Shown piece after piece: positions 2,585 through 52,100 of a stretch of DNA of 64,000 nt. This DNA is from Rugalucina vietnamica (lineage: Eukaryota > Mollusca > Bivalvia > Lucinida > Lucinidae): assembly GCA_964017185.1 (NCBI GenBank), contig OZ024876.1:12277726-12341725 (forward strand). The letters run 5' to 3'. The notes under the pieces were generated by a model. That model saw only the letters and a program-made list of their open reading frames with translations, ran no database searches and was not told where the DNA came from. Positions within the stretch are counted from its first letter, which is position 1; the number at the start of each line of letters is the position of its first letter. The position numbers and the translations under genes are program-made.

Positions 2585-3490
2585 AATAGGCTGTCTAGTA
2601 ATTTTGTTGGTTTATTGGCTGTCTATCAAGTTATTTTGGTTGTATAAATTAGTTGGTTTATTGGCTGTCTATGAAGTTATTTTGTTCTATGTAAATTAGT
2701 TGGTTTATCGGCTGTCTATCGAGTTATTATGGTTTGTGTAAATAAGTTGGTTTATCGGCTGTCTATTAAGTTATTTTGGTTGTGTAAATTAATTGGTTTA
2801 TCGGCTGTCTATGAAGTTATTTTGGTTTATGTAAATTAGTTGGTTTATCGACTGTTTATCAAGTTATTTTGGTTGTGTAAATTAGTTGGTTTATGGGCTG
2901 TCTATCAAGTTATTCTGGTATGTGTAAATTAGTTGGTAAATCGGCTGTTTATCAAGTTATTTTGGTTGTGTGAATTTGGTTTATCAGCTGTCTATCTAGT
3001 TATTTTGGTTTGTGTAAATTAGTTGGTTTATCGGCTGTCTATCAAGTTATTTTGGTTGTTTAAATTAATTGGTTTATCAGCTGTCTATTAAGTTTTTTTG
3101 GTAAATTAGTTGGTTTATCGGCTGTCTATCAAGTTATTTTGGTTGTGTAAATTACTTGGTTTATCAGCTGTCTATTAAGTTTTTTTGGTAAATTAGTTGG
3201 TTTATCGGCTGTCTGTCAAGTTATTTTGGTTGTGTTAATTAGTTGGTTTATCGGCTGTCTATCTAGTTATTTTGGTTTGTGTAAATTAGTTGGTTTATCG
3301 GCTGTCTATGAAGTTATTTTGGTTTATGTAAATTAGTTGGTTTATGGGCTGTCTATCAAGTTATTTTGGTTGTCTTAATTAGTTGGTTTATCGGCTGTCT
3401 ATCTAGTTATTTTGGTTGTGTTAATTAGCTGGTTTATCAGCTGTCTGTCAAGTTATTTTGGTTGTGTAAATTAGTTGGTTTATCGACTGT
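2585..3490 (+). repeat. 46-bp minisatellite array, about 20 units
   Basis: The unit is close to GTTGGTTTATCGGCTGTCTA followed by TCAAGTTATTTTGGTTGTGT and AAATTA, 46-47 bp, with single-base variants and a few shortened units. No open frame is conserved between units. Confidence 0.9.
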
Positions 3491-3499
3491 CAAGTTATT

Positions 3500-5243: not shown

Positions 5244-5264
5244 CTCACATTGTCAAAAATTATT

Positions 5265-5500
5265 TGAGCCGCCTCATGGGAAAACCAACAATGTGGTTTC
5301 CGAACAGGTCCAACACAAACCGACCTGTACAGTCACAGAAAAGAGCTAGAAGCTTGAAATTTGGGATTTAAGTAGAAGAGGAATTGTACTATCCAAGTAG
5401 CGAAAACAAAGGCGCTGATCAGCTTCGCGGTTACCGCGAAGCTGATCTGCGTCTTTGTTTTCGCATATGCAGATTGTTGGTTTTCCCATGAGGCGGCTCA
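5265..5500 (-). mobile_element. MITE-A, full copy
   Basis: Both TIRs and the GATCAGCTTCGCGG stem are intact. It lies directly after a family-B copy. Confidence 0.9.
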
Positions 5501-5738
5501 ATTATTTATCAAGTATCAAATGCTTCTTGGGTTGACTATATTAACAGTATTGTTAATCTGACAGTATTTTCATATCAAGAGATCAGGGCAAACGACCAAA
5601 TGGAGAAAAAGAGACTTAAAATATGCATTCTATGATAACAATTAACAAAAGACAATCAGTACCATTCTTAAGTGCAGACCAATCTCCATGTGTAACTTTA
5701 TATTGTATGGTGGTTCATCCTTGAATAGGAAAGATATA

Positions 5739-6655
5739 TGGGGTGCCATTTTACTATTTATTCCTTAGTTATGGATATCCATAATTCATTTATGGGTATC
5801 CATAATTCATTTATGGATATCCATGATTTATTCATGGATATCCTAAATTGAATTCAGGATATCTTAAAATAATTATGGATATCCTAAATTATCCTAGAAT
5901 ATCCATAAATGAATTATGGATATCCAAAAATGAATATAGGATATCCATAAATGAATTAAGGATATCCATAAATACATAAAAGGATATCCTAAACTACATT
6001 TTTGGATACCCAAATATCATGCTGAATTAAGGATATCCGTAATCAGATTTTAGGATATCCTAAATAAAAATTATGGATATCCTTAAATATTTAAGGATAC
6101 CCTTAAATGTATTTATGGATATCCAAAAATAGTCTTAAATTTAGGATATCCATAATTCAAATTAAGGATTCAAATTAAGGATATCCATAATTCCGATCGA
6201 GGATATCCATAAATAGGCTGATTTAAGGATATCCATAATTCAATTCCAGGATATCCTAAATTCATTTTTTAAAACCTTCCCCATTTCTTTAAATAATTTT
6301 CTTGTGATTTAAGGATATCCTTAAATGAATTATGGATATTCTAAAACATAATCTTAATTTAGGATATCTATAAATGGATTGAAGGAAATCCATGAATTGA
6401 ATAATGGATATCCAATATTCATCCTATTTAAGGATATCCTTAAATCAAATTATGGATATCCTTAGATAACATTTTATTTTAGGATATCCATAATTCATTT
6501 ATGGATATCCTAAAATCAATTTATGGATATCCATAATTCAGCCACATTAAGGATATCCTTAAACGAATTATGGATATACTTAATTCATTTATGGATATAC
6601 AAAAATGATTTATGGATATCCATAAATAGGGAATAAATAGTAAAACAGCACCCCA
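5739..6655. mobile_element. TIR element filled with a GGATATCC array
   Basis: Ends TGGGGTGCCATTTTACTATT and the complement of AATAGTAAAACAGCACCCCA form a TIR of about 30 bp with few mismatches, flanked by TA on both sides (5737-5738, 6656-6657), as in Tc1/mariner-type insertions. The interior (5770-6625) is an irregular array of the 8-bp palindrome GGATATCC with AT-rich spacers rich in TAAAT and ATTCAT. It has no ORF. Confidence 0.8.
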
Positions 6656-8540: not shown

Positions 8541-8638
8541 TGCTGTTTAATACAGCCTTCTGGGAGATGTAATAGAAAAGAATAGGAAATCTTGATGTTT
8601 CAAAGAATTTTAATGAAAATGACTGTCATACATAAATT

Positions 8639-8761
8639 TGAGCCGCCTCATGGGAAAACCAACAATCTGCATAGGCGAAAACAAAGACGCAGATCAGCTT
8701 TGCGGTAACCGCGAAGCTGATCAGGGCCTTTGTTTTCGCTACTCAGATAGTACAATTCCTC
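8639..8761 (+). mobile_element. MITE-A, left half of a split copy
   Basis: It runs from the TIR through the complete stem to GATAGTACAATTCCT and then stops at the boundary of the 11.1-kb composite. The missing right half, starting with the duplicated AATTCCTC, is at 19875-19995. Confidence 0.9.
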
Positions 8762-8803
8762 GGCTCAAGGGCACTATTGGGGACCATACGTTAGGATCAC
8801 AGA

Positions 8804-8815
<12 letters not shown>

Positions 8816-8875
<60 letters not shown>
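8816..8875. repeat. TA microsatellite
   Basis: An uninterrupted TA run of about 60 bp lies 54 bp inside the left end of the composite. Its counterpart at 13904-13978 is about 15 bp longer. Confidence 0.95.
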
Positions 8876-8879
<4 letters not shown>

Positions 8880-11800
8880 ACCAATACATACATCAGGTGC
8901 TCTTCAATACATGTCCGATAACCTTCACTGCTCGATACAAATCATACATCGTATATCTGGGTGGCAAAAAGGATGCTGCCTAATGGCCACATCAGTATCG
9001 TGAAAGGTGAACAAGTCGATCATTTTACAAATCAATATCATTAATCTTTATACAAGGACGTGACCATGCAATAATCATAGGTTGACAAGACGACAGGTTG
9101 ACAAGTCGACAAGTCGACAAATCAGTATTGTCCCAATCTGTATATCAACAGTTAACCCTAACCCTAACACCAACCTAAGCCTAACCATAACCTAACCGTA
9201 TCCCTAACCCTAACCTGATCTTTGTTATAGACAATAGCACTAGGTCAACAGGTCGACGTCGACAGGTCGACAAGTCGACAATTCACTATTGAAAAAATGG
9301 TCATTATTCACTCATTCTGTATATCAACAGTTAACTCTAACCCTAATACAATCCTAACACCAACCTAACCCTAACCCTAACCTAACCCTAACCCTACCCG
9401 GATCTTTCTTATTGACAATAGCTCTAGGTCATCTGGTCGACAAGTCGACAGGTCGACAAGTCGACAAGTCGACAAATCTCTATTGTTTATACATGTATGT
9501 ATACATGTAAATGGATGTGTAGATGCCCTCATTAATGGTCATTATTGTCCATATCTATAGGACATATCTATAGGTTAACAGTTAAAAATCAGAAATCAGA
9601 ATTGACTAGGGAGATGGATCTTCTGTAATGTCCACATCAGTAAATCGACAGGTCGACAAGTCGACAAATCAGTATGAGTGGTGTATACAAATGGAGGTGG
9701 AGATGTTGGTCAACCGGATCTTTGTTATTGACATATTGTCCCAATCTGTATGTCAACAGTTAACCCTAACCCTAACCCAACCCTAACCCTAACCACACAC
9801 TAACCCTAACCCTAACCCTAACTTAACCCTAACCCTTACCGGATCTTTGTTATTGACAAGAGCACTAGGTCGACAGGTCGACAGGTCGACAGGTCGACAA
9901 GTCGACAAGTCGACAAATCAATATTGCCAAAATATATAAATGGATAGGTAAGTATAGTCCAAGCGGAAAATCAAGGACTAAGTGCATGATGGGAAAAAGA
10001 GCCTATGTGGTATATAGCTGTCAATACATAATAATCATCATATACCTGAAGCATGATAGCATACGACGCCTGGGGAGCAAGCACTAACCCTAACCCTAGC
10101 CAAGCCCTAACCCTAACCACACACTAACCCTAACACTAACCCTTATCTAACCCTAACCCTAACCGGATCTTTGTTATCGACAATAGCACTTGGTCGACAG
10201 GTCGATAGGTCGACAAGTCGACAAGTCGACAAATCAATATTGCCAAAATATATAAATGGATAGGAAGGTATAGTCCAAGCGGAACTACAAGGACTAAGTG
10301 CATGATGGGAAATAGAACCTATGTGGCACATTTAGCTGTCAATACGTAATAATCATCATATACCTGAAGCGGGAGGATCGCATACGACGCCTGTGGGACA
10401 AGCCCCCCCCCCTCGACCCCCAAGCTAAAGAAAGAATCCTCCGAGATTACTTTCACTGGCAATATCGACATGTGATAAGCCTTTAAGTTTCCAGTGGATA
10501 TGCGGCTGTACATCTAAATATGTCATTTATCTGTACTGCCAAAACTGAATTGTCGACTTGTCGACTTGTCGACCTATGAGATTAGGAAAAGGGTCCTCAT
10601 TAATGCTCATTATTGTCCCATTCTGTATGTCAACATTTAACCCTAACCCTTACCCTAGCCCAACCCTAAACCTAACCACACACTAACCCTAACCCTATCC
10701 CTAACCGGATCTTTGTTCTTGACAATAGCACTAGGTCGACAGGTCGACAAGTCGACAAGTCGACAGGTCGACAAGTTGACTCTTCAATTTTGGCAGTACA
10801 TATAAATGACATATATAGATGGTTGTTGTTGACAATAGCACTAGGTCGACAGGTCGACAAGTTGACAGGTCGACAAGTCGACAGGTCGACAAGTCGACAG
10901 GTCGACAAGTCGACAAGTCGACAAATCAATATTGCCAAAATATATAAATGGATAGGTAGGTATAGTACAAGCGGAAGTACAATAATTGGCTAGGGAGATG
11001 GATCTTCTGTAATGTCCACATCAGTAAATCTACAGGTCGACAAGTCGACAGGTCGACAAGTCGACAAATCAGTATGAGTGGTGTATACAAATGGAGGTGG
11101 AGATGTTGGTCAACCGGATCTTTGTTATTGACATATTGTCCCAATCTGTATGTCAACAGTTAACCCTAACCCTAACCCAACCCTAACCCTAACCACACAC
11201 TAACCCTAACCCTAACCCTAACTTAACCCTAACCCTTACCGGATCTTTCTTATTGACAAGAGCACTAGGTCGACAGGTCGACAGGTCGACAAGTCGACAA
11301 GTCGACAAATCAATATTGCCAAAATATATAAATGGATAGGTAGGTACAGTCCAAGCGGAAATACAAGGACTAAGTGCATGATGGGAAAAAGAGCCTATGT
11401 GGTATATAGCTGTCAATACATAATAATCATCATATACCTGAAGCATGATCCCATACGACGCCTGGGGGGCAAGCACTAATCCTAACCCTAGCCAAGCCCT
11501 AACCCTAACCACACACTAACCCTAACACTAACCCTAATCTAACCCTAACCCTAACCGGATCTTTGTTATCGACAATAGCACTAGGTCGACAGATCGACAA
11601 GTCGACAAATCAATAATGCCAAAATTGCTAACACTAACCCTTATCTATCCATAAACCTAACCGGATCTTTCTAACTGACAATAGCACTAGGTCGGTCGAC
11701 AGGTGGACAGGTCGACAAGTCGACAAGTCGACAAGTCAACAAATCAATATTGCCAAAATATATAAATGGATAGGTAGGTATAGTCCAAGAGGAACTACAA

Positions 11801-13620
11801 GGACTAAGTGCATGATGGGAAATAGAACCTATGTGGCACATTTAGCTGTCAATACATAATAATGATCATATACCTGAAGCGGGAGGAGCATGATCGCATA
11901 CGACGCCTGGGGGGCAAGCCCCCCCCCACCTCGACCCCCAAGCTAAAGAAAGAAAGAATCCTCCGAGATTACTTTCATTGGCAATATCGACATGTGATAA
12001 GCCTTTAAGTTTCCAGTGGATATGCGGCTGTACATCTAAATATGTCATTTATCTGTACTGCCAAAACTGAATTGTCGACTTGTCGACTTGTCGACCTGTC
12101 GACTTGTCGACCTATGAGATTGGGAGAAGGGTCCCCATTAATGCTCATTATTGTCCCATTCTGTATGTTATCATTTAACCCTAACCCTAACCCTAGCCCA
12201 TCCCTAAACCTAACCACACACTAACCCTACCCTAACCCTAACCGGATCTTTCTTGTTGACAATAGGACAAGGTCGACAGGTCGACAAGTCGACAGGTCGA
12301 CTAACCCTAGCCCAGCCATAAACCTAACCACACATTAACCCTAACCCTAACCGGATCTTTGTTGTTGACAATAGCACTAGCTCTACAGGTGGACAAGTCG
12401 ACAAGTCGACCGGTCGACAAGTCGACAAATCAATTTTGGCAGTACATATAAATGACATATATAGATGTTTGTTGTTGACAATAGCACTAGGTCGACAGGT
12501 CGACAAGTCGACAAGCCGACAGGTCGATAAGTCGACAAGTCGACAAGTCGACAGGTCGACAAGTCGACAAGTCGACAAGTCGAGAAATCAATATTGCCAA
12601 AATATATAAATGGATAGGTAGGTATAGTCCAAGCGGAAGTACAAGTACTAAGTGCATGATGGGAAAAAGAACCTATGTGGTACATAAAGCTGTCAATACA
12701 TAATAAGCATCATATACCTGAAGCATGATCGCATACGACGCCTGGGAGGGGCAAGCACCCCGACCCCAAAGCTAAAGAAAGAATCCTCCGAGATAGCTTT
12801 GTCTGGCAACATCGACATGTGATAAGTCTTTAAGTTTCCAGCGGATATGCAGCTGTACATCTACATATCTCATTTATCTGTACTGCCAAAACTGAATTGT
12901 CGACTTGTCGACTTGTCGACTTGTCGACCTGTCGACTTGTCGACCTATGAGCTTGGGAGAAGGGTCCTCATTAATGGTCATTATTGTCCCAATCTGAGTG
13001 TCAACAGTTAACCCTAACCCTAACCGAGCCCTAAACCTAACCACACACTAACCCTAACCCTAACCGGATCTTTGTTGTAGACAATAGGACTAGCTCGACA
13101 GGTCGACAGGTCAACCTATGAGATTGGGAGAAGGGTCCTCATTAATGGTCATTATTGTCCCAATCTGTTTGTCAACAGTTAACCCTAACCCTAGCCCAGC
13201 CCTATCCCTAACCACACACTAACCCTAACACTAACCCTAACACTAACCCTAATCTAACCCTAACCCTTACCGGATCTTTGTAATTGACAATAGCACTAGG
13301 TCGACAGGTCGACAGGTCGACAAGTCGACAGGTCGACAAGTCGACAAATCAATATTGCCAAAAATGCTAACACTAACCCTAATCTAACCCTAGCCCTAAC
13401 CGGATCTTTGTTATTGACAATAGCACTAGGTCGACAGGTCGACAAGTCGACAAATCAATATTGCCAAAATATATAAATGGATAGTTAGGTATAGTCCAAG
13501 CGGAACTACAAGGACTAAGTGCATGATGGAAAAAAGAGCCTATGTGGTACATATAGCTGTCAATACATAATAATCATCATATACCTGAAGCATGATCGCA
13601 TACGACGCCTGGGACGCAAG

Positions 13621-13647
13621 CCCCCCCCCCCCCCCCCCCCCCCCCCC
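13621..13647 (+). repeat. Poly-C run
   Basis: About 27 consecutive C. The counterpart in copy 2, starting near 18711, has about 20. Other modules have shorter C runs at the same place, so this is an unstable slot in each module. It produces poly-Gly frames on the minus strand. Confidence 0.9.
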
Positions 13648-13848
13648 GACCCCCAAGCTTAAGAAAGAATCCTCCGAGATAGCTTTGTCTGGCAACATCG
13701 ACATGTGATAAGCCTTTAAGTTTCCAGTGGATATGCGGCTGTACATATATATATATGTCATTTATCTGTACTGCCAAAACTGAATTGTCGACTTGTCGAC
13801 TTGTCGACCTGTCGACTTGTCGACCTATGAGATTGGGTGAAGGATTCT

Positions 13849-13891
13849 CGGCTCAAGGGCACTATTGGGGACCATACGTTAGGATCACAGA

Positions 13892-13981
<90 letters not shown>

Positions 13982-16900
13982 ACCAATACATACATCAGGT
14001 GCTCTTCAATACATGTCCGATAACCTTCACTGCTCGATACAAATCATACATCGTATATCTGGGTGGCAAAAAGGATGCTGCCTAATGGCCACATCAGTAT
14101 CGTGAAAGGTGAACAAGTCGATCATTTTACAAATCAATATCATTAATCTTTATACAAGGACGTGACCATGCAATAATCATAGGTTGACAAGACGACAGGT
14201 TGACAAGTCGACAAGTCGACAAATCAGTATTGTCCCAATCTGTATATCAACAGTTAACCCTAACCCTAACACCAACCTAAGCCTAACCATAACCTAACCG
14301 TATCCCTAACCCTAACCTGATCTTTGTTATAGACAATAGCACTAGGTCAACAGGTCGACGTCGACAGGTCGACAAGTCGACAATTCACTATTGAAAAAAT
14401 GGTCATTATTCACTCATTCTGTATATCAACAGTTAACTCTAACCCTAATACAATCCTAACACCAACCTAACCCTAACCCTAACCTAACCCTAACCCTACC
14501 CGGATCTTTCTTATTGACAATAGCTCTAGGTCATCTGGTCGACAAGTCGACAGGTCGACAAGTCGACAAGTCGACAAATCTCTATTGTTTATACATGTAT
14601 GTATACATGTAAATGGATGTGTAGATGCCCTCATTAATGGTCATTATTGTCCATATCTATAGGTTAACAGTTAAAAATCAGAAATCAGAATTGACTAGGG
14701 AGATGGATCTTCTGTAATGTCCACATCAGTAAATCGACAGGTCGACAAGTCGACAAATCAGTATGAGTGGTGTATACAAATGGAGGTGGAGATGTTGGTC
14801 AACCGGATCTTTGTTATTGACATATTGTCCCAATCTGTATGTCAACAGTTAACCCTAACCCTAACCCAACCCTAACCCTAACCACACACTAACCCTAACC
14901 CTAACCCTAACTTAACCCTAACCCTTACCGGATCTTTGTTATTGACAAGAGCACTAGGTCGACAGGTCGACAGGTCGACAGGTCGACAAGTCGACAAGTC
15001 GACAAATCAATATTGCCAAAATATATAAATGGATAGGTAAGTATAGTCCAAGCGGAAAATCAAGGACTAAGTGCATGATGGGAAAAAGAGCCTATGTGGT
15101 ATATAGCTGTCAATACATAATAATCATCATATACCTGAAGCATGATAGCATACGACGCCTGGGGAGCAAGCACTAACCCTAACCCTAGCCAAGCCCTAAC
15201 CCTAACCACACACTAACCCTAACACTAACCCTTATCTAACCCTAACCCTAACCGGATCTTTGTTATCGACAATAGCACTTGGTCGACAGGTCGATAGGTC
15301 GACAAGTCGACAAGTCGACAAATCAATATTGCCAAAATATATAAATGGATAGGAAGGTATAGTCCAAGCGGAACTACAAGGACTAAGTGCATGATGGGAA
15401 ATAGAACCTATGTGGCACATTTAGCTGTCAATACGTAATAATCATCATATACCTGAAGCGGGAGGATCGCATACGACGCCTGTGGGACAAGCCCCCCCCC
15501 CTCGACCCCCAAGCTAAAGAAAGAATCCTCCGAGATTACTTTCACTGGCAATATCGACATGTGATAAGCCTTTAAGTTTCCAGTGGATATGCGGCTGTAC
15601 ATCTAAATATGTCATTTATCTGTACTGCCAAAACTGAATTGTCGACTTGTCGACTTGTCGACCTATGAGATTAGGAAAAGGGTCCTCATTAATGCTCATT
15701 ATTGTCCCATTCTGTATGTCAACATTTAACCCTAACCCTTACCCTAGCCCAACCCTAAACCTAACCACACACTAACCCTAACCCTATCCCTAACCGGATC
15801 TTTGTTCTTGACAATAGCACTAGGTCGACAGGTCGACAAGTCGACAAGTCGACAGGTCGACAAGTTGACTCTTCAATTTTGGCAGTACATATAAATGACA
15901 TATATAGATGGTTGTTGTTGACAATAGCACTAGGTCGACAGGTCGACAAGTCGACAGGTCGACAAGTCGACAGGTCGACAAGTCGACAGGTCGACAAGTC
16001 GACAAGTCGACAAATCAATATTGCCAAAATATATAAATGGATAGGTAGGTATAGTACAAGCGGAAGTACAATAATTGGCTAGGGAGATGGATCTTCTGTA
16101 ATGTCCACATCAGTAAATCTACAGGTCGACAAGTCGACAGGTCGACAAGTCGACAAATCAGTATGAGTGGTGTATACAAATGGAGGTGGAGATGTTGGTC
16201 AACCGGATCTTTGTTATTGACATATTGTCCCAATCTGTATGTCAACAGTTAACCCTAACCCTAACCCAACCCTAACCCTAACCACACACTAACCCTAACC
16301 CTAACCCTAACTTAACCCTAACCCTTACCGGATCTTTCTTATTGACAAGAGCACTAGGTCGACAGGTCGACAGGTCGACAAGTCGACAAGTCGACAAATC
16401 AATATTGCCAAAATATATAAATGGATAGGTAGGTACAGTCCAAGCGGAAATACAAGGACTAAGTGCATGATGGGAAAAAGAGCCTATGTGGTATATAGCT
16501 GTCAATACATAATAATCATCATATACCTGAAGCATGATCCCATACGACGCCTGGGGGGCAAGCACTAATCCTAACCCTAGCCAAGCCCTAACCCTAACCA
16601 CACACTAACCCTAACACTAACCCTAATCTAACCCTAACCCTAACCGGATCTTTGTTATCGACAATAGCACTAGGTCGACAGATCGACAAGTCGACAAATC
16701 AATAATGCCAAAATTGCTAACACTAACCCTTATCTATCCATAAACCTAACCGGATCTTTCTAACTGACAATAGCACTAGGTCGGTCGACAGGTGGACAGG
16801 TCGACAAGTCGACAAGTCGACAAGTCAACAAATCAATATTGCCAAAATATATAAATGGATAGGTAGGTATAGTCCAAGAGGAACTACAAGGACTAAGTGC

Positions 16901-18932
16901 ATGATGGGAAATAGAACCTATGTGGCACATTTAGCTGTCAATACATAATAATGATCATATACCTGAAGCGGGAGGAGCATGATCGCATACGACGCCTGGG
17001 GGGCAAGCCCCCCCCCACCTCGACCCCCAAGCTAAAGAAAGAAAGAATCCTCCGAGATTACTTTCATTGGCAATATCGACATGTGATAAGCCTTTAAGTT
17101 TCCAGTGGATATGCGGCTGTACATCTAAATATGTCATTTATCTGTACTGCCAAAACTGAATTGTCGACTTGTCGACTTGTCGACCTGTCGACTTGTCGAC
17201 CTATGAGATTGGGAGAAGGGTCCCCATTAATGCTCATTATTGTCCCATTCTGTATGTTATCATTTAACCCTAACCCTAACCCTAGCCCATCCCTAAACCT
17301 AACCACACACTAACCCTACCCTAACCCTAACCGGATCTTTCTTGTTGACAATAGGACAAGGTCGACAGGTCGACAAGTCGACAGGTCGACTAACCCTAGC
17401 CCAGCCATAAACCTAACCACACATTAACCCTAACCCTAACCGGATCTTTGTTGTTGACAATAGCACTAGCTCTACAGGTGGACAAGTCGACAAGTCGACC
17501 GGTCGACAAGTCGACAAATCAATTTTGGCAGTACATATAAATGACATATATAGATGTTTGTTGTTGACAATAGCACTAGGTCGACAGGTCGACAAGTCGA
17601 CAAGCCGACAGGTCGATAAGTCGACAAGTCGACAAGTCGACAGGTCGACAAGTCGACAAGTCGACAAGTCGAGAAATCAATATTGCCAAAATATATAAAT
17701 GGATAGGTAGGTATAGTCCAAGCGGAAGTACAAGTACTAAGTGCATGATGGGAAAAAGAACCTATGTGGTACATAAAGCTGTCAATACATAATAAGCATC
17801 ATATACCTGAAGCATGATCGCATACGACGCCTGGGAGGGGCAAGCACCCCGACCCCAAAGCTAAAGAAAGAATCCTCCGAGATAGCTTTGTCTGGCAACA
17901 TCGACATGTGATAAGTCTTTAAGTTTCCAGCGGATATGCAGCTGTACATCTACATATCTCATTTATCTGTACTGCCAAAACTGAATTGTCGACTTGTCGA
18001 CTTGTCGACTTGTCGACCTGTCGACTTGTCGACCTATGAGCTTGGGAGAAGGGTCCTCATTAATGGTCATTATTGTCCCAATCTGAGTGTCAACAGTTAA
18101 CCCTAACCCTAACCGAGCCCTAAACCTAACCACACACTAACCCTAACCCTAACCGGATCTTTGTTGTAGACAATAGGACTAGCTCGACAGGTCGACAGGT
18201 CAACCTATGAGATTGGGAGAAGGGTCCTCATTAATGGTCATTATTGTCCCAATCTGTTTGTCAACAGTTAACCCTAACCCTAGCCCAGCCCTATCCCTAA
18301 CCACACACTAACCCTAACACTAACCCTAACACTAACCCTAATCTAACCCTAACCCTTACCGGATCTTTGTAATTGACAATAGCACTAGGTCGACAGGTCG
18401 ACAGGTCGACAAGTCGACAGGTCGACAAGTCGACAAATCAATATTGCCAAAAATGCTAACACTAACCCTAATCTAACCCTAGCCCTAACCGGATCTTTGT
18501 TATTGACAATAGCACTAGGTCGACAGGTCGACAAGTCGACAAATCAATATTGCCAAAATATATAAATGGATAGTTAGGTATAGTCCAAGCGGAACTACAA
18601 GGACTAAGTGCATGATGGAAAAAAGAGCCTATGTGGTACATATAGCTGTCAATACATAATAATCATCATATACCTGAAGCATGATCGCATACGACGCCTG
18701 GGACGCAAGCCCCCCCCCCCCCCCCCCCCCGACCCCCAAGCTTAAGAAAAAATCCTCCGAGATAGCTTTGTCTGGCAACATCGACATGTGATAAGCCTTT
18801 AAGTTTCCAGTGGATATGCGGCTGTACATATATATATATGTCATTTATCTGTACTGCCAAAACTGAATTGTCGACTTGTCGACTTGTCGACCTGTCGACT
18901 TGTCGACCTATGAGATTGGGTGAAGGATTCTC
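13849..18932 (+). repeat. 5.09-kb tandem duplication, copy 2
   Basis: Second copy of 8761-13848. At its right end TGAAGGATTCTC runs into ATTAATGGTCATTATTG, while at the end of copy 1 the same TGAAGGATTCTC joins GGCTCAAGGG. This places the junction within a few bases. Confidence 0.9.
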
Positions 18933-19874
18933 ATTAATGGTCATTATTGTCCCAATCTGTATGTCAACAGTTAACCCTAACCCTAGCCCAACCCTAAACC
19001 TAACCACACACTAACCCTAACCCTAACCCTAACCGTATCTTTGTTGTTGACAATAGCACTAGGTCGACAGGTCGACAAGTCGACAAGTCGACAGGTCGAC
19101 AAGTCGACAATTCAATTTTGGCAGTACAGATAAATGACATATATAGATGTACAGCCGCGTATCCACTGGAAACTTAAAGGCTGACAATAACAAAGATCCG
19201 TTTGACCAATATCTCCACCTCCATTCATATACATGATTTGTCAACTTGTCGACCTGTCGACTTGTCGACCTTTGTGTATATCTATTTATCTAAATTGATT
19301 TGTCGATTTGTGGACTTGTCGGCCTATCTACGGATATTTAAAAGGACTAAATGCATGGTTTGAAAGAAAGAGAAGGGTCCCCGTTAATACACTTGACCCG
19401 GATTCTCATTAATGGTCATTATTGTCCCAATCTGTATGTCAACAGTTAACCCTAACCCTAGCCCAACCCTAAACCTAACCACACACTAACCCTAACCCTA
19501 ACCCTAACCGTATCTTTGTTGTTGACAATAGCACTAGGTCGACAGGTCGACAAGTCGACAAGTCGACAGGTCGACAAGTCGACAATTCAATTTTGGCAGT
19601 ACAGATAAATGACATATATAGATGTACAGCCGCGTATCCACTGGAAACTTAAAGGCTGACAATAACAAAGATCCGTTTGACCAATATCTCCACCTCCATT
19701 CATATACATGATTTGTCAACTTGTCGACCTGTCGACTTGTCGACCTTTGTGTATATCTATTTATCTAAATTGATTTGTCGATTTGTGGACTTGTCGGCCT
19801 ATCTACGGATATTTAAAAGGACTAAATGCATGGTTTGAAAGAAAGAGAAGGGTCCCCGTTAATACACTTGACCC
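18926..19874 (+). repeat. 475-bp tandem duplication at the right end
   Basis: 18926-19400 and 19401-19874 are apparently identical. Each has GATTCTCATTAATGGTC, a CCCTAA stretch, GTCGAC runs in inverted orientation around a unique core, and GGGTCCCCGTTAATACACTT at its end. Only the second copy abuts the target duplication. Confidence 0.9.
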
Positions 19875-19995
19875 AATTCCTCTTCTACGTAAAACCGAAA
19901 TTTCAAGCTTCTAGCCTGCTTCTGTGACTGTACAGGTTGGTTTGTGTCGGACCTGGTCGGAAACCACATTGTTGGTTTTCCCACGAGGCAGCTCA
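19875..19995 (+). mobile_element. MITE-A, right half of the split copy
   Basis: It starts with the duplicated AATTCCTC and continues CTTCTACGTAAAACCGAAAT, GGACCTGGTCGGAAACCAC to the TIR. Together with 8639-8761 it makes one normal MITE-A with TT at both outer ends. Confidence 0.9.
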
Positions 19996-20749: not shown

Positions 20750-21005
20750 TAGCACAAAGCACATGTTGTGTAGGTCAGGCAATAACCCCTCCCCCAAACA
20801 CCAAACACAGCAACTTAAAGCATTTATGTAGTCAAGTATACCCGAGATGCAACAAAATTTCTTAAACTTTGATGCAACATCACAAATCACATGATAAAAT
20901 GGAGAGTTGTGATTGGCTGATTGATTTGGCTAGAACCTACAGCAGTAGATTGTTTCCAATTTAATCAGGCTTCCATTACCTTCTTATTGCCATGCTCCAA
21001 TTAAT

Positions 21006-21241
21006 TGAGCCGCCTCATGAGAAAACCAACAATCTGCATATGCGAAAACAAAGACGCAGATCAGCTTCGCGGTAACCCCGAAGCTGATCAGCCTCTTTGT
21101 TTTCGATATGCGGATAGTACAATTCCTCCTCTTCTTAAATCCGAAATTTCAAGCTTCTAACCTGCTTCTGTGACTGTGCAGCCTGATTTGTGTCGGACCT
21201 CATCAGAAACCACATTGTTGGTTTTCTCACGATACGGCTCA
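21006..21241 (+). mobile_element. MITE-A, full copy
   Basis: Left TIR intact, right TIR GATACGGCTCA. The stem has a CCCCGAAG mismatch, so the hairpin is imperfect. AT occurs on both flanks. Confidence 0.9.
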
Positions 21242-21505
21242 ATTTTGTCATGTGTTGTGTAATGTTGCATCAATCCGCGCTGTAAGAATCATGAGTATAT
21301 AGGGTGTAGTTGTCAAACTGTTTAAATGAAACTTTGCTAGGCACCAGCACAAAGAAAAGACACAACTCACAGGACCAAAAAACATATACAAAATTAAAGA
21401 TAAAATAAAAAAAAATAAAACAAAAAATAAGTAAACATGACATTGCCAAATTCTTTCTTACTATGGATGAAGATTTTCATGGTAGATAGCAAGAAATTAA
21501 TAATA
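21242..21505. other. No recognised feature
   Basis: AT-rich sequence with an A-rich AAATAAAAC stretch around 21395-21425. Confidence 0.4.
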
Positions 21506-22280: not shown

Positions 22281-22399
22281 TATATGTGAAGCATGTTTCA
22301 ATACTGTAAGTCTTAATATGATAAACATGTTTGAATAACGTGATAAAAATGTTTGAATAATGTGATAAACATGATTCCAACTTCTTAATATGTAAAATA

Positions 22400-22635
22400 T
22401 GAGCCGTCTCGTGGAAAAACCAACAATGTGGTTTCCAAACAGGTCTAACACAAACTGGCCTGTACAGCTACAGAAGCAGGCTAGAAGCTTGAAATTTTGG
22501 AGTTAAGTAGAGGAGGAATTGTACTATCCGAGTAGCGAAAACAAAGGCGCTGATCAGCTTCGCGGTTACCGCGAAGCTGATCTGCGCCTTTGTTTTCGCC
22601 TATGCAGATTGTTGGTTTTCCCACGAGGCAGCTCA
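22400..22635 (-). mobile_element. MITE-A, full copy
   Basis: Both TIRs and a perfect stem. It was inserted in the AAACATGTTT array. Confidence 0.9.
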
Positions 22636-25213: not shown

Positions 25214-25319
25214 TTAATTTATTCTGTCTGTGAACACATTTTGTGAAGTATTTGGAACATAGGAACTACCAGTCATAACATAAAGGACATAGGGCATTTT
25301 ATAACGCATTAATTACAAA

Positions 25320-25555
25320 TGAGCCGCCTCGTGGGAAAAGCAACAATGTGGTTTCCGAACAGGTCCGACACAAACCGGCCTGTACAAGCACAGAAAAGAG
25401 CTAGAAGCTTGAAATTTCCGATTTAAGTAGAAGAGGAACTGTACTATCCGAGTAGCGAAAACAAAGGCGCTGATCAGCTTCGCGGTTTCCGCGAAGCTGA
25501 TCTGTGTCTTTGTTTTCGCCTATGCGGATTGTTGGTTTTCCCATGAGGCGGCTCA
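25320..25555 (-). mobile_element. MITE-A, full copy
   Basis: TIRs and stem are complete, with AA on both flanks. Confidence 0.9.
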
Positions 25556-25639
25556 AATGGTTCACCCATCTTAATCATTTGCATAAATCAGTCCAACACA
25601 AGCCAGGCTGTACAGCTACAGAACCTGGTTAAAGGAATA

Positions 25640-36071: not shown

Positions 36072-38161
36072 AAAAAACCTTGAAAAATCTTTTTCTCCAG
36101 AACTAGAAGGCCTATGATTTTGAAACTTGGCATGAAGCATCAGGCAATGGGACATCTACAAAGTTTATATAAATCGTGACCTTTGGATGACCTTGACCTA
36201 TTTTACGGCAAGGTCAACTTAGGTCGCCCATGCATTTGAATGGGGAAAATTGTTAAAATGTCATTTGAAGGGCAAAACTTGCAGTAAATTGGCAAATGGA
36301 CTGCAGTTTTATGTTTTCAAAAAGAAATTGACTCCAGGGGTTGCTCTCACCCGGCCCTGGGGTTATATACATGTATAGTACCATTCTAGTCAAACAAGTT
36401 TATTGGTATATATCTCGCGTTTCAGGTGAGCGTTTACAGGACCATTGGTCCTCTGGTCAGACTTGGCATCCACCCTAGCGTGTATTGTTACACATCAAGG
36501 AACACATTTAGCGTGGATGCCAAAATGTACTCAAAAATGCCAACAGAAAAATATTTTGATGGCTCGAGAGGCCAACTATAGACTTATAATGGAAAAAAGT
36601 GAAAATTGCCAGTTTTTGCTGTCTTGTTGGAGATATTTGAATTTTGTTTTTACAGAAATATTTATTGAGTAGTCCTCTACGTTTCATGTGACTTTTGTCC
36701 TAATCCTTCATTTTGATATGTATATATAGGGCAAAATTTCAAAAAACATTCAAAAATCTTCTTCTCAGAAACTGTCAAGGGGATGAAGCCTATACTTTGT
36801 ATACTTGTATACATGTTCCTGACAGTGGCCTCTACATAATTTGTGTTTTTTATTCCAGGCGGATAAGAACTCTGGTTGCTATGGCAACTTAAAGTTTCCA
36901 TAGACTTATAATGGGAAAAGTGGAAATTGGTTATTTTTCCGCTAAAATTGCAGACTTTGAATTTTGTTTTTGCAGAAATGTTTATCGAGTAGTGTTTCTT
37001 GCAAGTTTTGTCCTAATCCTTTATTTTGATTGGTTGCTGGGGCCCCATAAAGGGCAAAATTTTGAGAAAAAAAAACATTAAAAAATCTTCTCCTCTGACA
37101 GAAACTGTCAAGAGGATGAATCCTGTACTTTGTATACATGTTCCTGACAGTAGCCTCTACATAATTTGTGTTTTTTATTCCAGTCGGATAAGAACTCTGG
37201 TTGCTATGGTAACTTTAAGTTTCCATAGACTTATAATGGGAAAAGTGGAAACTAGCTATTTTTTGAAAACTATTGCAGCCTGAGATCTGAAAAGTGGTAG
37301 ATGCAAACAACTAATGGATTAGATGAAGGTATATGATTAATTTAGGTCAAGGTCATCTCTTGACCTTGGCCGGTCTGTCGTCCATACACACTTTTCAAAG
37401 ATTTTTTTCTCTGAAACCACTTGGCCAATCAAAGCCAAATTTTATATGAAGCATCTATAGGAAGGGGGAACCAATGTGTATATAAATAATCCAGGTCACA
37501 TGACCAAGATGGCCGCCATGCCCATATATGGTAAAAAACCTTACAATATCTTCTTCTCCAGAACCGGTGAACCGATTTCAACGAAACTTTGCATCAAGTA
37601 TGCATGACTCAAGTACTACAATGTATATATAAAACATGACCCTGTGGTGACCTTGACCTATTTTATGGCAAGGTCAACATAGGTCGTCAATGCATTTGAA
37701 TGGGGAAAACTTTTAAAATGTCATTTTAAGTGAAATTCTTGCAAGAAATGGGCTGTAGGATTGAAATTAAATGATTCTGAAAAAAAAATGGACCCCAAGG
37801 GCTCATCTGCTTTAAAATGTTATTTGAAGGGGAAAATCAGCAGGAAATTGGCAAATGGACAGAATATTGATTATTCTGAAAAAAAGAAAATGGCCCAAGG
37901 GCTTCATCTGCCCCTGCACTGGGGTTAAATACCATAATATTCAAATATGTTTATTGGTATATGAAGCAGATCTCAGGTGAGCGTTTACAGGACCATTGGT
38001 CCTCTGGTTACAGTTTTCCAGACCTTTTTATTGACCTCTTGCCTCCATTTTTCAGCTTTCTGAAGACATCTATAAAGGCATAGGTTGTAAGGCTCTTCTT
38101 TACATTTTCCACTATAAATTTTTTCTTATGAAGGGAGTTAAACTATTTTCACCAAACTATA

Positions 38162-38397
38162 TGAGCCGCCTTATGGGAAAACCAACAATCTGTCTAGGCG
38201 AAAACAAAGGCGCAGATCAGCTTCGCGGTAACCGCGAAGCTGATCAGCGCCTTTGTTTTCGCTATACGGATAATACAATTGCTCTTCTACTTAAGTCCGA
38301 AATTTCAAGCTTCTAGCTGTTTTCTGTGCTTGTACAGCCCAGTTTGTGTCGGACCTGTTCGGAAACCACATTGTTGGTTTTCCCACGAGGCGGCTCA
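38162..38397 (+). mobile_element. MITE-A, full copy
   Basis: Complete TIRs and perfect stem, TA on both sides. It lies near the centre of the large inverted repeat, next to an inverted second copy. Confidence 0.95.
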
Positions 38398-38433
38398 TAT
38401 TATAGTTGTCCCCATAACAGTCTATGCGTAATA

Positions 38434-38669
38434 TGAGCCACCTCGTGGGAAAACCAACAATGTGGTTTCCGAACAGGTCTGACACAAACCAAACTGTACA
38501 AGCACAGAAAAGAGCTAGAAGCTTGAAATTTCGGATTTAAGTAGAAGAGGAATTGTACTATCCGAGTAGCGAAAACAAAGGCGCTGATCAGCTTCGCGGT
38601 AACCGCGAAGCTGATCTGCGCCTTTGTTTTCGCCTATGCACATTGTTGGTTTTCTCATGGGGCGGCTCA
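38434..38669 (-). mobile_element. MITE-A, full copy
   Basis: Complete, perfect stem, TA flanks. Opposite orientation to the copy 36 bp to its left. Confidence 0.95.
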
Positions 38670-41582
38670 TATGTATATTTAAAAAAAAACACAACAGTGA
38701 TATCCCAAAGTTGAAATAAAGCCTTGCTTCTTCCCGCTCCCCATGTTTCTCTTTTTTCCAGGCAATGTTGGAATTAGAGGGGAAATAAATTGTGGCGGGG
38801 GTCTTGGAGGCGGCCCCCAGAAGCTCTTGAGTTATTACTGCAATCTCCTCTATGTTGGCCTTTCTTGAGGTCACATGATTTTTTAGCATGCAGTAAATAC
38901 ATGTATGTATAAAAGGGTGATTTGAAGAAAAAGGTAGGATTCATAAAAGGTAGGTTAACACCTTAACCAGAGGACCAATGGTCCTGTAAACACTCACCCG
39001 AGATCTGCTGCATATACCAATAAACATGTTTGAATATTATGGTATTTAACTCCAGTGCAAAGGCAGATGAAGACCTTGGGCAATTTTCTTTTTTCAGAAT
39101 AATCAATATTCTGTCCATTTGCCAATTTCTTGCTGGCTTTTCCCTTCAAATGACATTTTATCAGTTTTCCCCATTCAAATGCATAGGCAACCCATGTTGA
39201 CCTTGCCATAAACTTGGTCAAGGTCATCACAGGGTCATGATTTATATAAACATTGGAGTACTTAAGCCATCGATGCTTCACGCCAAGTTTCCTTGAAATC
39301 AGTCAATTTGGTTTCAGAGAAGAAGATTTTTGAAGGGTTTTTACCATATATGGGCATGGCGGCCATCTTGGTCATGTGACATAAATTATTAATATACACA
39401 TTGGTTCCCCCATCCTATGGATGCTTCACGTAAAATTTGGCTTTAATTGGTCAAGCAGTTTCAGGGGAGAAGATGTTTGAATAATATGGTAATATACATG
39501 CATATTGCCCCGGGGTGGGGCCATATAAGCCCTAGGGTCCAACTTTTTTCAGAATCATTATATTCAGTCCTACTACCTATTTCCTGAAAGATTTTCACTT
39601 CAAATGACTTTTTAAAAGTTTTCTCCATTCAAATGCATAGGCGACCCATGTTGACCTTGTCGTAAAGTAGGTCAAGGTCACCACAGGGTCATGATTTATA
39701 TACACATTGTAATACTTTAGCCATCAATGCTTCATGCCAAGTTTCTTTGAAATCGGTCCACCAGTTCCGGAGAAGAAGATTTTTGAAGGGTGTTTACTGC
39801 ATATGGGCATGGCGGCCATCTTGGTCATGTGACCTTGATTATTTATGTACACATTGATTCCCCCTTTCTATAAATGCTTCATATCAAATTTGGCCTTGAT
39901 TGGCCTAGCGGTTTCAGAGAAGAAGATGTTTTAATACTATGGCAATATACATATACCAGAGGACCAATGGTCCTGTAAACGCTCACCTGAGATCTGCTTC
40001 ATATACCAATAAACATATTTGAATATTATGGTATGCAGATGAAGCCCTTGGGCCATTTTCTTTTTTCAGAATAATCAATATTCTGTCCATTTGCCAATTT
40101 CCTGCTGGTTTTCCCCTTCAAATAACATTTTAAAAGCAGATGAGCCCCTGGGGTCCTTTTTTTTTTCAGAATCATTAATATTCAGTCCTATTGCCTATTT
40201 CCTGCAAGACTTCCACTTTAAATGACATTTTAAAAGTTTTCCCCCTTCAAATGCATTGACGACCTATGTTGACCTTGCCATAAAATAGGTCAAGGTCACC
40301 ACAGGGTCATGATTTATATATACATTATAGTACTTGAGTCATCCATACTTCATGCAAAGTTTCGTTGAAATCGGTTCACCGGTTCTGGAGAAGATATTTT
40401 AAGGGTTTTTACCATATATGGGCATGGCGGCCATCTTGGTCATGTGACCTGGATTTTTTATATACACATTGGTTATCACTTCATATAGATGCTTCATATA
40501 AAATTTGGCTTTGATTGGCCAAGTGGTTTCAGAGAAAAAAATCTTTGAAAAGTGTGTATGGACAACAGACCGGCCAAGGTCAAGAGATGACCTTGACCTA
40601 GATTAAGCATATACCTTCATCTAATCCATTAGTCGTTTGCATCTACCACTTTTCAGATCTCAGGCTGCAATAGTTTTCAAAAAATAGCTAATTTCCACTT
40701 TTCCCATTGTAAGTCTATGGAAACTTTAAGTTACCATAGCAACCAGAGTTCTTATCCGAATGGAATAAAAACATAAATTATGTAGAGGCTACTGTCAGGA
40801 ACATGTATACAAAGTACAGGATTCATCCACTTGACAGTTTCTGAGGAGAAAATTTTTGAATGTTTTTTTTTTAAAAATTTTACCCTTTATGGGGCCCCAG
40901 CAACCAATCAAAATAAAGGATTAGGACAAAACTCACAAGAAACGTCAAACACTACTCAATAAACATCTCTGCAAAAACAAAATTCAAATGTCTGCAATTT
41001 AAGCGGAAAAATAGCCGATTTCCACTTTTCCCATTATAAGTCTATGCCATAGCAACCAGAGTTCTTATCCGCCTGGAATAAAAAACACAAAATATGTAGA
41101 GGCCACTGTCAGGAACATGTATACAAAGTACAGGCTTAATCCCCTTGACAGTTTCTGAGAAGAAGATTTTTGAATGTTTTTCGAAATTTTGCCCTATATG
41201 GGGCCCCTGCAACCAATGAAAATAAAGGATTAGGACAAAAGTCACATGAAACGTAGATGACTACTCAATAAACATTTCTGCAAAAACAAAATTCAAATAT
41301 CTCCAACAAGACAGCAAAAACTGGCAATTTTCACTTTTTTCCATTATAAGTCTATGGGAAGCATAAGTTGCCATAGTAACCAGAGTCCTTATCCGATCAA
41401 AACAAAAAACACAATTATTCTTTCCCCCTACCTGTAGATGGTGTATGTGTAATATGAGAACAATCGGCCCAGCGGTTTCAGAGAAGAAGATCTTTGAAAT
41501 TGTGGACGACGGACAGACGGACGGACGCCTGAGCATGGGTATACTATAAGCTCACCTATGAGCCTTCGGCTCAGGTGAGCTA

Positions 41583-49100: not shown

Positions 49101-52100
49101 TTTGTTTTCCAAAAAAATCCAAAACAGGTAATCAGTAATTTTAGCAATTTAAGCCAAAAAACAAGAAACTGCCTTAGCCTTGCAAGCCCTATAACCATCC
49201 CAATGAAAATTTCCCTGACACTGCTTCAAAATTCCCTGACATTTCCCTGACTTTTTCCTTATTTTTCAAATTTCCCTGACCCTTCTCAAAATTCCCTGAC
49301 ATTTCCCTGACTTTAACAAAATTTCATTTTTCCCTGACTTTTCCCTGACGCGTGGGAACCCTGCAATTTGTGTCTGACCTGTTTGGAAACCACATTGTTG
49401 GTTTACTCATGCCATGGCTCATTCCCTACCTATCCTGATTCCTGGATCTACAGGAGGCTTCAACAGCTGTATCATTACACCAATAACACAGTACGTCATG
49501 TATACAATTGTCCTTCTTTCCATACTTCGTACAGACATTGTAGTTGACTTTGACGACTTCGTAATCTGTGCCAAGGTACAGACTGGTTCTGTTCTCCTGA
49601 AACAATGGTAAAGAGAAATGAGCCTTTGCATGAGAAAACTAAACAATTTAGGTTTCCGACGAACCCTGGCACAAATGAGCCGCCTGGTGGGAAAACCTGG
49701 TTTCCAAACAGGTCTGACACAAACCGAGCTGTACAATCACAGAAAAGAGCTAGAAGCTTGAAATTTCGGATTTAAGGATGTTCGCTGCTAACATTTGACA
49801 TTTCCGAACTTCCGGTTTTTCTTTTGTTGAATATCTCGTAAACGGTTGCAGATATTTTCCCAATATCTTATATTTGGATACATAATGATGATATGCATTG
49901 AACGAGCCATGAAAATTGTCAATCTAAGAAACTTCATTTTTTCACCCCATTTTCTGCAACTTTTCAGAAAAATTTAGGTGTCAGTGAAATTTAGGGGGTA
50001 GGGTAGATTAAACTTGAATATTACACATCTTCAAATTAATTGCACTATTTCTTTGTTTATTTTAGCTGCAGTATATGTGTACATGGTCTTCTAAGTCAGT
50101 CTTTGTGTCTTTGGTGTGCTGGTTTTAAAATTTTAGGTGGTTTTATGAAATGGGCTTAAAGAAACAAAACGGCTGAAAAAAGGCTGAAAATGGTGACTAC
50201 CAAGTTGTTGGTTCTCTCTTATATGCACACTACCCTATATATTTCTTTCTTTTATTCGAACAATATTACAAAGTTCTATGGTGTGTGGAAATACAAGAAA
50301 AAGTTTGAATAAACAAATATGGGTTTGGCACATTTCAAAATATTGATTTTTTCCGACTATTCAAGTATGGGGGTAGGGTTGGAAAAATACTCGTAAAATT
50401 TTGTCATCCACTTCCAGTTGCAAATTTTTCTATGCGTTTGGTCCAAAATAGTCTGCGTCACATAAATATTATGACTTTTGAAAGCATTCTAGGTGTATTT
50501 TTGTTCAAGACAGGTTTGTTTCAAAGAATTAAAAATTAAATTAATTTTACTAAATTTAAAACATGTTGCTCAGAGGTCTCATTCAGAGGCCTGTAGCTTG
50601 AAAAAATGCACACTACCCTATATTTATTTTGCTTTCAAATGTCTTGTGTTGTATTTTGGAATCAAAAAAGGGTGGTTAGAAAAAAAGTTTGAATACTTTT
50701 TCATTGGCAGCGAACATCCTTAAGTAGAAGAGGAATTGTACTATCCAAGTAGCAAAAACAAAGGCACTGATCAGCTTTGCAGTTACTGCGAAGCTGATCT
50801 GTGCCTTTGTTTTCGCATATGCAGATTGTTGGTTTTCCCATGAGGCGGCTCAAATGTTGTGCATGATCTTTACAAGAAATGGTTCTATCGAGTTACGTGT
50901 TTGATATTTGGCTAAACCATGTCATTCTACATTTCCTTAGGTTCAAATTCGACCATGAACATTTTATAGTCTGTTGTCCTCTACTGAGGGTTGGACTTGT
51001 TTGACAAGTTGAAATCTCCTTCTTAGACGACCTCTCCACTCTGAGCGATTCTGTGGATCAGCATTATTCATTCCTAGTTTTTTCCTCTCGCCTAACAACA
51101 CTTCATCCCATGATTTCCTTGGCTTGCCAGATCTTTTCTGTGCAACTACGTTTAGTTTGCGTACTTGAGAAATCCAGCCTTTGCTACCCTCTACGTGTCC
51201 ATATTATCTCATTCTGCTGGAGCGGAGCACCACAACTATATCCTGGAGCCAAACCTTTGAGAAAAGGGAGTCTGAGCTTGATTCATCATTCACCTTGACA
51301 TTAAAGATCCAGGGGATCATCGCACTGTCACTGGCCCGTAGGCGATTAAGTGTAGCCTGTCATTACCCATTGTTTCTGCTGCATGCAAACGATGTATGGC
51401 ATGATTTGAGCCCCCTCATAGAAAAACCAACAATCTGCATATGCGGAAACAAAGACGCTGATCAGCTTCGCGGTAACCCCGAAGCCGATCAGCGCCTTTG
51501 TTTTCGCTATACGGATAGAACAATTCCTCTACTATCTAAATCCAAAATTTCAAGCTTCTGGCTGTCTTCTGTGACTGTGCAGGCCAGTTTGTGTCAGACC
51601 TGGTCGGAACCCAAATTGTTGGTTTTCTCACGCACAGGCTCATTTTTTCAATCCTGTTGGTATGATAACAAATGAGCCGCCTCATGGGAAAACCAACAAT
51701 CTGCATAGGCGAAAACAAAGATGCAGATCAGCTTCGCGGTAACCACGAAGCTGATCAGCGCCTTTGTTTTCGCTATTCGGATAGAACAATTCCTCTTATA
51801 CTTAAATCCGAAATTTCAAGCTTCTAGCTCTTTTCTGTGCTTGTACAGGTCGGTTTGTGTCGGACCTGTTCTGAAACCACATTGTTGGTTTTCCCACGAG
51901 GCGGCTCAAACGGAAGCTGGGTACCTGCCTATCCTATAAGCTCACCTACAGGCCTTCTGCTCTGGTTATCGAAAAATGTGTGTACAGGGGTATTCATTTC
52001 TTTCTTATTTTTTGCTTTAAAACATATTGTGGGTACCTGTTAGAACCTCCTCTGCAAGGTGTTTCTATCGCAAATATTTTCAACTGAAAAATTCAATTTA

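Follow-up and report, generated by a model that had tools for sequence, protein, structure and literature searches.

Here, we report that an 11.1-kb satellite-like tract in the genome of Rugalucina vietnamica derives from two insertions of one mobile element. The tract lies in a 64,000-nucleotide stretch (hereafter the window; C8:12277726-12341725 of the 1.09-Gb genome, 47 contigs). It is best explained as a non-autonomous Merlin (IS1595-like) transposon that inserted into a miniature inverted-repeat transposable element (MITE) and was subsequently hit by its own second copy, each insertion producing an 8-bp duplication; we put the probability of this reading at about 80%. The nested structure itself is directly visible: the window stretch is a self-nest in direct orientation, and both insertions have their own exact 8-bp target duplication.

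Window positions 8762-19874 comprise two near-identical copies of the element, an outer copy (E1) interrupted by an inner one (E2). E1 consists of a 5088-bp 5' part (8762-13849, plus strand, starting with GGCTCAAGGGCACTATTGGGGACC) and a 467-bp 3' part (19408-19874, plus strand, ending with ACACTTGACCC), which rejoin to 5555 bp, while E2 spans 5550 bp (13850-19399, plus strand). The two copies have only 2 mismatches over 5536 aligned positions, with further gaps at a (TA)n tract (8806-8876 in E1, 13894-13978 in E2), a 13-bp unit and a (C)n tract (13621-13647 in E1). E1 is bordered by the exact 8-bp duplication AATTCCTC (8754-8761 and 19875-19882) and E2 by the exact 8-bp duplication GGATTCTC (13842-13849 and 19400-19407). 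E2 contains at position 18925 the uninterrupted site GGATTCTCATTAATGG, the equivalent of the E2 insertion site in E1. The left terminal sequence GGCTCAAGGGCACTATTGGG is present twice in the window stretch, at 8762 and 13850, as is the right terminal sequence CACTTGACCC, ending at 19399 and 19874. This second full set of ends with its own duplication identifies the locus as a self-nest built by two insertions and not as one unit that expanded later. The ends of the element family are GGCTCAAGGGCACTATTGGGGACC (left) and GGGTCAAGTGTATTAATGGGGACC (right), and both termini begin with GG. Terminal inverted repeats (TIRs) are imperfect: GGCTCAAG and GGGTCAAG (the reverse complement of CTTGACCC) agree at 18 of 24 positions in the E2 alignment, rising to 19 of 24 with the majority form of the right end. 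By alignment, the TIRs occupy 8762-8785 (plus) and 19851-19874 (minus) in E1 and 13850-13873 (plus) and 19376-19399 (minus) in E2.

The MITE that E1 entered flanks the composite at 8632-8761 and 19883-19995 (outer limits approximate), and the flanks joined at the E1 site match MITE copies of the window unbroken over the join, with up to 92% identity. The outer boundaries with their 8-bp duplication, the location inside one MITE copy and the similar inverted ends had all been recognized in the initial annotation of this DNA and are confirmed here. The MITE is about 240 bp long, is very abundant, with many copies in this one window (5254-5507, 21005-21244, 22399-22635, 25317-25558, 38155-38676, 51404-51910, 62880-63122 and others), and has ends like TGAGCCGCCTCATGGGAAAACCAA.

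The element is not confined to this locus. Genome-wide searches with 20-mers of the ends (up to 3 mismatches, reversed pattern as control) returned 279 matches for the left end (153+126; control 3+4) and 170 for the right end (93+77; control 11+6). End positions were taken from the first 100 matches of each type, and 63 of the 100 left ends so listed have a right-end partner within 30 kb, at a median of 5656 bp. Both flanks were read for 35 elements, of which 30 came from the list of pairs, in three blocks of ten, and five were chosen for special structure. Exact 8-bp duplications flank 30 of them, two more match at 7 of 8 positions, one is shifted by 2 bp and two have none. The exact cases comprise all five special-structure elements and 25 of the 30 listed pairs, of which 22 are exact at the nearest right end and three at a farther one. 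Single copies with their own duplications span 3.3-7.2 kb to the nearest right end, the exceptions measuring 9.7 kb and 22.3 kb, and the three single copies that were read whole have the same make-up as the window element. A 42-bp cassette word from the element (up to 3 mismatches) has 707+690 matches in the genome and none for the control; 98 of the 100 matches listed lie less than 10 kb from a listed end and the other two less than 12 kb, so that the cassettes, as far as listed, belong with the window element family. The initial annotation had suspected a mobile non-autonomous element carrying telomere-like repeats and had called for a search for further copies; many copies with these ends and 8-bp duplications are indeed present. 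The 22.3-kb copy (C4:31409366-31431680) has the exact 8-bp duplication GAGGGGTG and contains tandem Penelope-like retroelement units of about 3.7 kb, with RVT_1 and GIY-YIG Pfam matches below cut-offs; the 18.9 kb of it examined contain no transposase-like frame.

The interior of the element is strongly structured. The composite holds 215 of the GTCGAC motifs in the window versus 2 outside, and 140 TAACCC versus 8 outside, whereas GGGTTA is absent within and occurs 7 times outside. E2 accounts for 108 GTCGAC, 70 TAACCC and no GGGTTA. Between 14181 and 19271 of E2, (TAACCC)n telomere-like stretches alternate with arrays of GTCGACAR, whose period is 8 bp and not the 9 bp first proposed. The recurring module consists of a telomere-like stretch, GGATCTTTGTT..GACAATAGCACTAG and a GTCGACAR array, and GACAATAG occurs 14 times. 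Within elements, the inner 19 bp of the right end also recur as near-copies (5, 5, 5 and 2 in four copies, besides the terminal one), versus averages of 0-0.05 in 20 Markov shuffles per copy. We considered these near-copies as fossils of earlier nestings. However, nearly all run on into the same module sequence, and a single founding event with later duplication of the module is therefore equally likely.

No coding capacity for transposition was found in the composite. The longest stop-to-stop frame touching it has 140 amino acids (aa) and is a read-through of repeats, profile searches with eight open reading frames of the window gave two weak Ig-domain matches below cut-off, and Rfam matches within the composite were far below gathering scores. 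By tblastn (E up to 1), the Merlin transposase described below had no match in the composite, in the element sides of 38 end loci or in the further family loci L079, L120, L121 and L125-L127, and the 9651-bp copy (L079) has no transposase inside. As the window element lacks an IS1595-domain transposase, it is at most a non-autonomous member of Merlin. On the element side of the 38 end loci, three frames exceed 171 aa (L019, L023, L029), and all three are retroelement-like as judged by eye. That at L019 (2-973 of C2:75127208-75130227) is a 324-aa reverse-transcriptase-like frame within a family copy, perhaps a second retroelement insertion.

Self-insertion is not unique to the window. A second nest at C1:100282372-100294461 has an inverted inner copy, with outer duplication CACCATTC and inner duplication GGTTTATG. 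At the window locus, the right-end 20-mer of E1 and E2 (...AACGGG) is found exactly at only two sites in the genome, both in the window, which indicates that E2 derived from E1 or from an immediately shared donor. Some other family members combine a single left end with two or three right ends. All nine internal right ends that were read align onward, in the same orientation (the only one considered), into the element interior, one with 3 extra bases, and the six composites of this kind with both outer flanks read (C1:3566436, C1:67531874, C6:28848977, C2:22717039, C2:71061714 and C5:55518850) all have exact outer duplications. One junction class, in which a right end runs into CCCTNATCTAACCC (2 mismatches allowed), is present at 13 sites in nine loci and absent from the control; the right end is altered at five of the 13 sites, e.g., to TACACTTGGCCC. 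The outer duplications read at four of these nine loci are exact and mutually different, which argues that the composites transposed as units after they had formed. It thus appears that self-inserted composites went on to move as larger units, suggesting that self-insertion makes the family grow and that its movement spreads telomere-like repeats. The window shows an intact intermediate with all four ends present, before any end-swapping or recombination. Because both nested copies have ends, the nest could be mobilized via the inner left and the outer right end. The product of such a move would be longer and would have a right end inside, and repeated moves would lengthen the array.

End-swapping of this kind would be the simplest route to the composites. 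The strongest competitor, which we consider a substantial possibility though short of even odds, is that composites with internal right ends arose by ectopic recombination between the left halves of nests, or by tandem duplication. Recombination would produce the identical structure (left end, internal right end, right end) with an intact outer duplication, and tandem duplication is favored by four loci at which the junction is doubled at a spacing of 1365-1414 bp. The nine junction loci, four of them with different exact duplications, speak for later transposition; this bears on the later movement of the composites and not on their first formation.

The telomere-like stretches look like acquired passengers of a non-autonomous lineage, with a strong strand bias. 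It is rather improbable that they are functional instead, either by recruiting telomerase or telomere proteins or as repair patches derived from telomerase RNA. The strict bias of E2 (70 TAACCC versus no GGGTTA) and its G-quadruplex-like motifs, seven on one strand and none on the other, would fit a function, as would the TTAGGG arrays elsewhere in the genome and the repair-borne telomeric inserts known in vertebrates (PMC8537989). That the genome carries a TTAGGG repeat is indicated by 1634+1501 overlapping matches to five exact units. Of 16 contig-end stretches of 600 bp, six were all N and the other ten had no telomere array. However, the longest perfect TAACCC run in E2 has three units, and telomere-like arrays are absent from the Merlin loci on contigs C12 and C14 (see below), which have one TAACCC each in 10.5 and 12.4 kb. 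Four of the 38 end loci (L023, L028, L030, L035) likewise have no telomere-like repeats in the element-side 1.5 kb, although 19 TAACCC lie deeper in the copy behind L028 and the 1.5 kb of L023 contain the retroelement-like frame. A separate interstitial satellite at C1:60243762-60278096 and beyond has a unit of about 1.3 kb, and the units listed hold TTAGGG runs.

Merlin transposons have 5'-GG ends, TIRs of 24-462 bp and 8- or 9-bp duplications, and some families have highly imperfect TIRs and internal tandem repeats (PMC8101967). The window family resembles them in its GG termini, its imperfect TIR of about 24 bp, its 8-bp duplications (30 of 35 elements plus both window copies) and its internal tandem repeats. 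The genome has 56 matches to PF12762 (IS1595/Merlin), 30 of which were read at the locus level. Arrays of GTCGAC accompany two of these 30 (10 and 35 copies), and the remaining 28 loci have 0-3 copies. The first of these two, the element at C12:13645890-13654278, is 8389 bp long, is flanked by the exact duplication GATATATC and encodes an IS1595-type transposase (PF12762, E 2.6e-27; NF033547, 112 bits, cut-off 75). Its ends are GGGTCAAGTATAGTAAAGG and GGCTCAAGTCTAGTAAAG, the end octamers being identical to those of the window family (GGGTCAAG and GGCTCAAG), and arrays of AGGTCGAC lie close to one end and arrays of GTCGACCT close to the opposite end. The nearest relatives of its transposase are on C2 (69% identical, broken), C9 (65%) and C14 (64%). 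The C2 relative begins with a 20-mer identical to the C12 end, followed by seven GTCGAC, and its array lies about 1.3 kb upstream of the transposase; both C12 and C2 have the GGGTCAAG-type end on the 5' side of the transposase, unlike C9. Taken together, the shared end octamers, the GTCGAC arrays and the 8-bp duplication of an element with a Merlin transposase make non-autonomous Merlin the best reading of the window family. The initial annotation had proposed to look for a transposase with these ends, and this search succeeded in part: related elements share the end octamers, while the whole TIR is not shared. Under this model, a Merlin-type transposase encoded elsewhere would recognize GG[CG]TCAAG ends and move the element in trans. 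By analogy with the hexamers of Ac (PMC3260210), the GTCGAC octamer arrays may serve as transposase binding sites. Four short Merlins (L151, L155, L166 and L167) contrast with the long C12 type: they measure 1.56-1.75 kb and have 8-bp duplications and GG ends, which in three cases are near GGATAGAATGCATTTTAGCG.

Several observations weigh against the Merlin reading and the history proposed with it. The C12 ends agree with those of the window family at only 17 of 24 positions for the right type and 13 of 24 for the left type, with nothing but the octamers fully shared, and no element was found that combines the inner TIR GGGGACC with a transposase. Listed ends of the exact family have none of the 56 PF12762 matches within 80 kb. 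At C14, the relative combines a transposase with GTCGAC arrays, but its 12.4 kb show no recognized ends. GTCGAC is missing from the 3.3 kb examined of the C9 relative, whose sole GGGTCAAG-type end (GGGTCAAGTATAGTATAAGA, 3 of 20 mismatched) faces inward, 0.8 kb away on the 3' side of the transposase. The DUF3987 proteins introduced below have no match (tblastn, E up to 1) in the family DNA compared. Two of the 35 elements are without a target duplication, and the internal right ends are explained equally well by recombination.

Assignment to another superfamily with 8-bp duplications, such as hAT, Zisupton/KDZ, P or Mutator-like transposons, appears improbable. The preferred target of hAT elements is nTnnnnAn. 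The 30 target duplications of the window family lean the opposite way, towards nAnnnnTn (17 have A at the second position, 20 have T at the seventh). GG ends, end octamers and GTCGAC arrays are common to the family and PF12762-encoding elements; this comparison stands beside no search for hAT, P or Mutator-like elements. Zisupton and a Dileera lineage also make 8-bp duplications (PMC12730594), which counts in favor of this alternative.

Two explanations of the window locus itself retain hardly any probability. A single 11.1-kb insertion in which a satellite array then grew in place, as the initial annotation proposed, would accord with the exact outer duplication AATTCCTC and the repetitive interior; it is refuted by the complete inner end set with its own exact duplication GGATTCTC, the uninterrupted site within E2 and the separate single copies elsewhere, and since whole single copies already have the make-up of the window element, the doubling reflects a second insertion and not array expansion. 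An assembly artefact, i.e., one element doubled by a mis-join, is similarly remote: the two copies are nearly identical and odd palindromic or duplicated copies exist in the genome, but an 8-bp duplication placed precisely at the termini is not what a mis-join would create, the two copies are told apart by 2 bases, the 13-bp unit and the (TA)n and (C)n tracts, and nesting recurs at the C1 locus, where the inner copy is inverted and the two duplications are not alike. The odd copies are L128 (C15:46542304-46542505), where two left ends stand head to head in a palindrome that reaches into the flanks over the 202 bp read and is either an inverted duplication or an assembly artefact, and C17:26860787 and 26864847, where two right ends 4.06 kb apart are followed by the same flank TCCAAATTTAGGTG, a local duplication or again an assembly artefact.

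The C12 Merlin element also encodes a DUF3987 protein (PF13148, E 6e-19; PHROG 2373, DNA helicase, E 1.5e-9). A genome search for DUF3987 gave five matches at only four loci: C12:13648378-13649355, inside the Merlin element; C14:30088765-30090309, beside the transposase in divergent order; C2:69139626, at 11.5 kb from the transposase at C2:69.13 Mb; and C2:63568254, with a transposase fragment 37 kb away at C2:63.6 Mb. Three of the four loci are thus less than 12 kb from one clade of Merlin transposases. This linkage in the genome sequence points to a two-gene Merlin lineage with transposase and DUF3987. A sequence search of solved structures with the DUF3987 protein found no meaningful relative, and the literature searched does not name Merlin, DUF3987 and transposon together. 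The protein may act as an ATPase. It is tempting, if rather doubtful at present, to extend this to a broader model, in which a lineage with an IS1595-type transposase and a helicase-like DUF3987 ATPase, possibly an accessory regulator like TnsC, MuB or IstB, would drive non-autonomous relatives. These would become longer by inserting repeatedly into themselves and capturing the outer right end, and transposition itself would thereby both build and disperse satellite-like and telomere-like arrays.

Insertion of a transposon into its own kind has precedents. In the double Ds of maize, where Ac/Ds belong to the hAT superfamily, one Ds copy is inserted in another; the direct-orientation nest and the amplified composites with internal ends, as stated for the window family, are unlike double Ds. 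Elements of the Helentron/Helitron class are not known to have TIRs with 8-bp target duplications, whereas the window family has both. Ac/Ds share with the window family 8-bp duplications and short subterminal repeats, which in Ac/Ds are bound by the transposase (PMC3260210). P{lacW} in Drosophila likewise exemplifies self-insertion of a DNA transposon, but is an artificial construct, and the part of the account available mentions no amplified composites (PMC4744444). The Cg_HINE Helentrons of oysters are similar in being non-autonomous and in dispersing satellite-like arrays (PMC7492417). Among Merlins, the three curated ones of a bivalve library average 1635 bp (PMC10294476). The window family differs from the Merlins compared above in its 5.5-kb non-autonomous copies, telomere-like stretches and recurrent self-nesting, and in having an 8.4-kb relative with a DUF3987 gene.

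The locus and its relatives make a route readable from sequence, leading from a single transposon via self-insertion and movement of the composite to a dispersed satellite-like array, with precursor and products in one genome. They also connect Merlin, which is usually short and has a single gene, with a group of long non-autonomous elements, and give indications of a companion ATPase gene. Telomere-like blocks scattered by such elements could be misread as relics of chromosome fusion. Apart from the composite, the window contains other tandem arrays at 193-568, 2598-3491 and 5769-6627, with units of 21 bp (ATAAGATATCTTATATAATAT), 46 bp (GTAAATTAGTTGGTTTATCGGC..) and 21 bp (TTATGGATATCCATAATTCAT).

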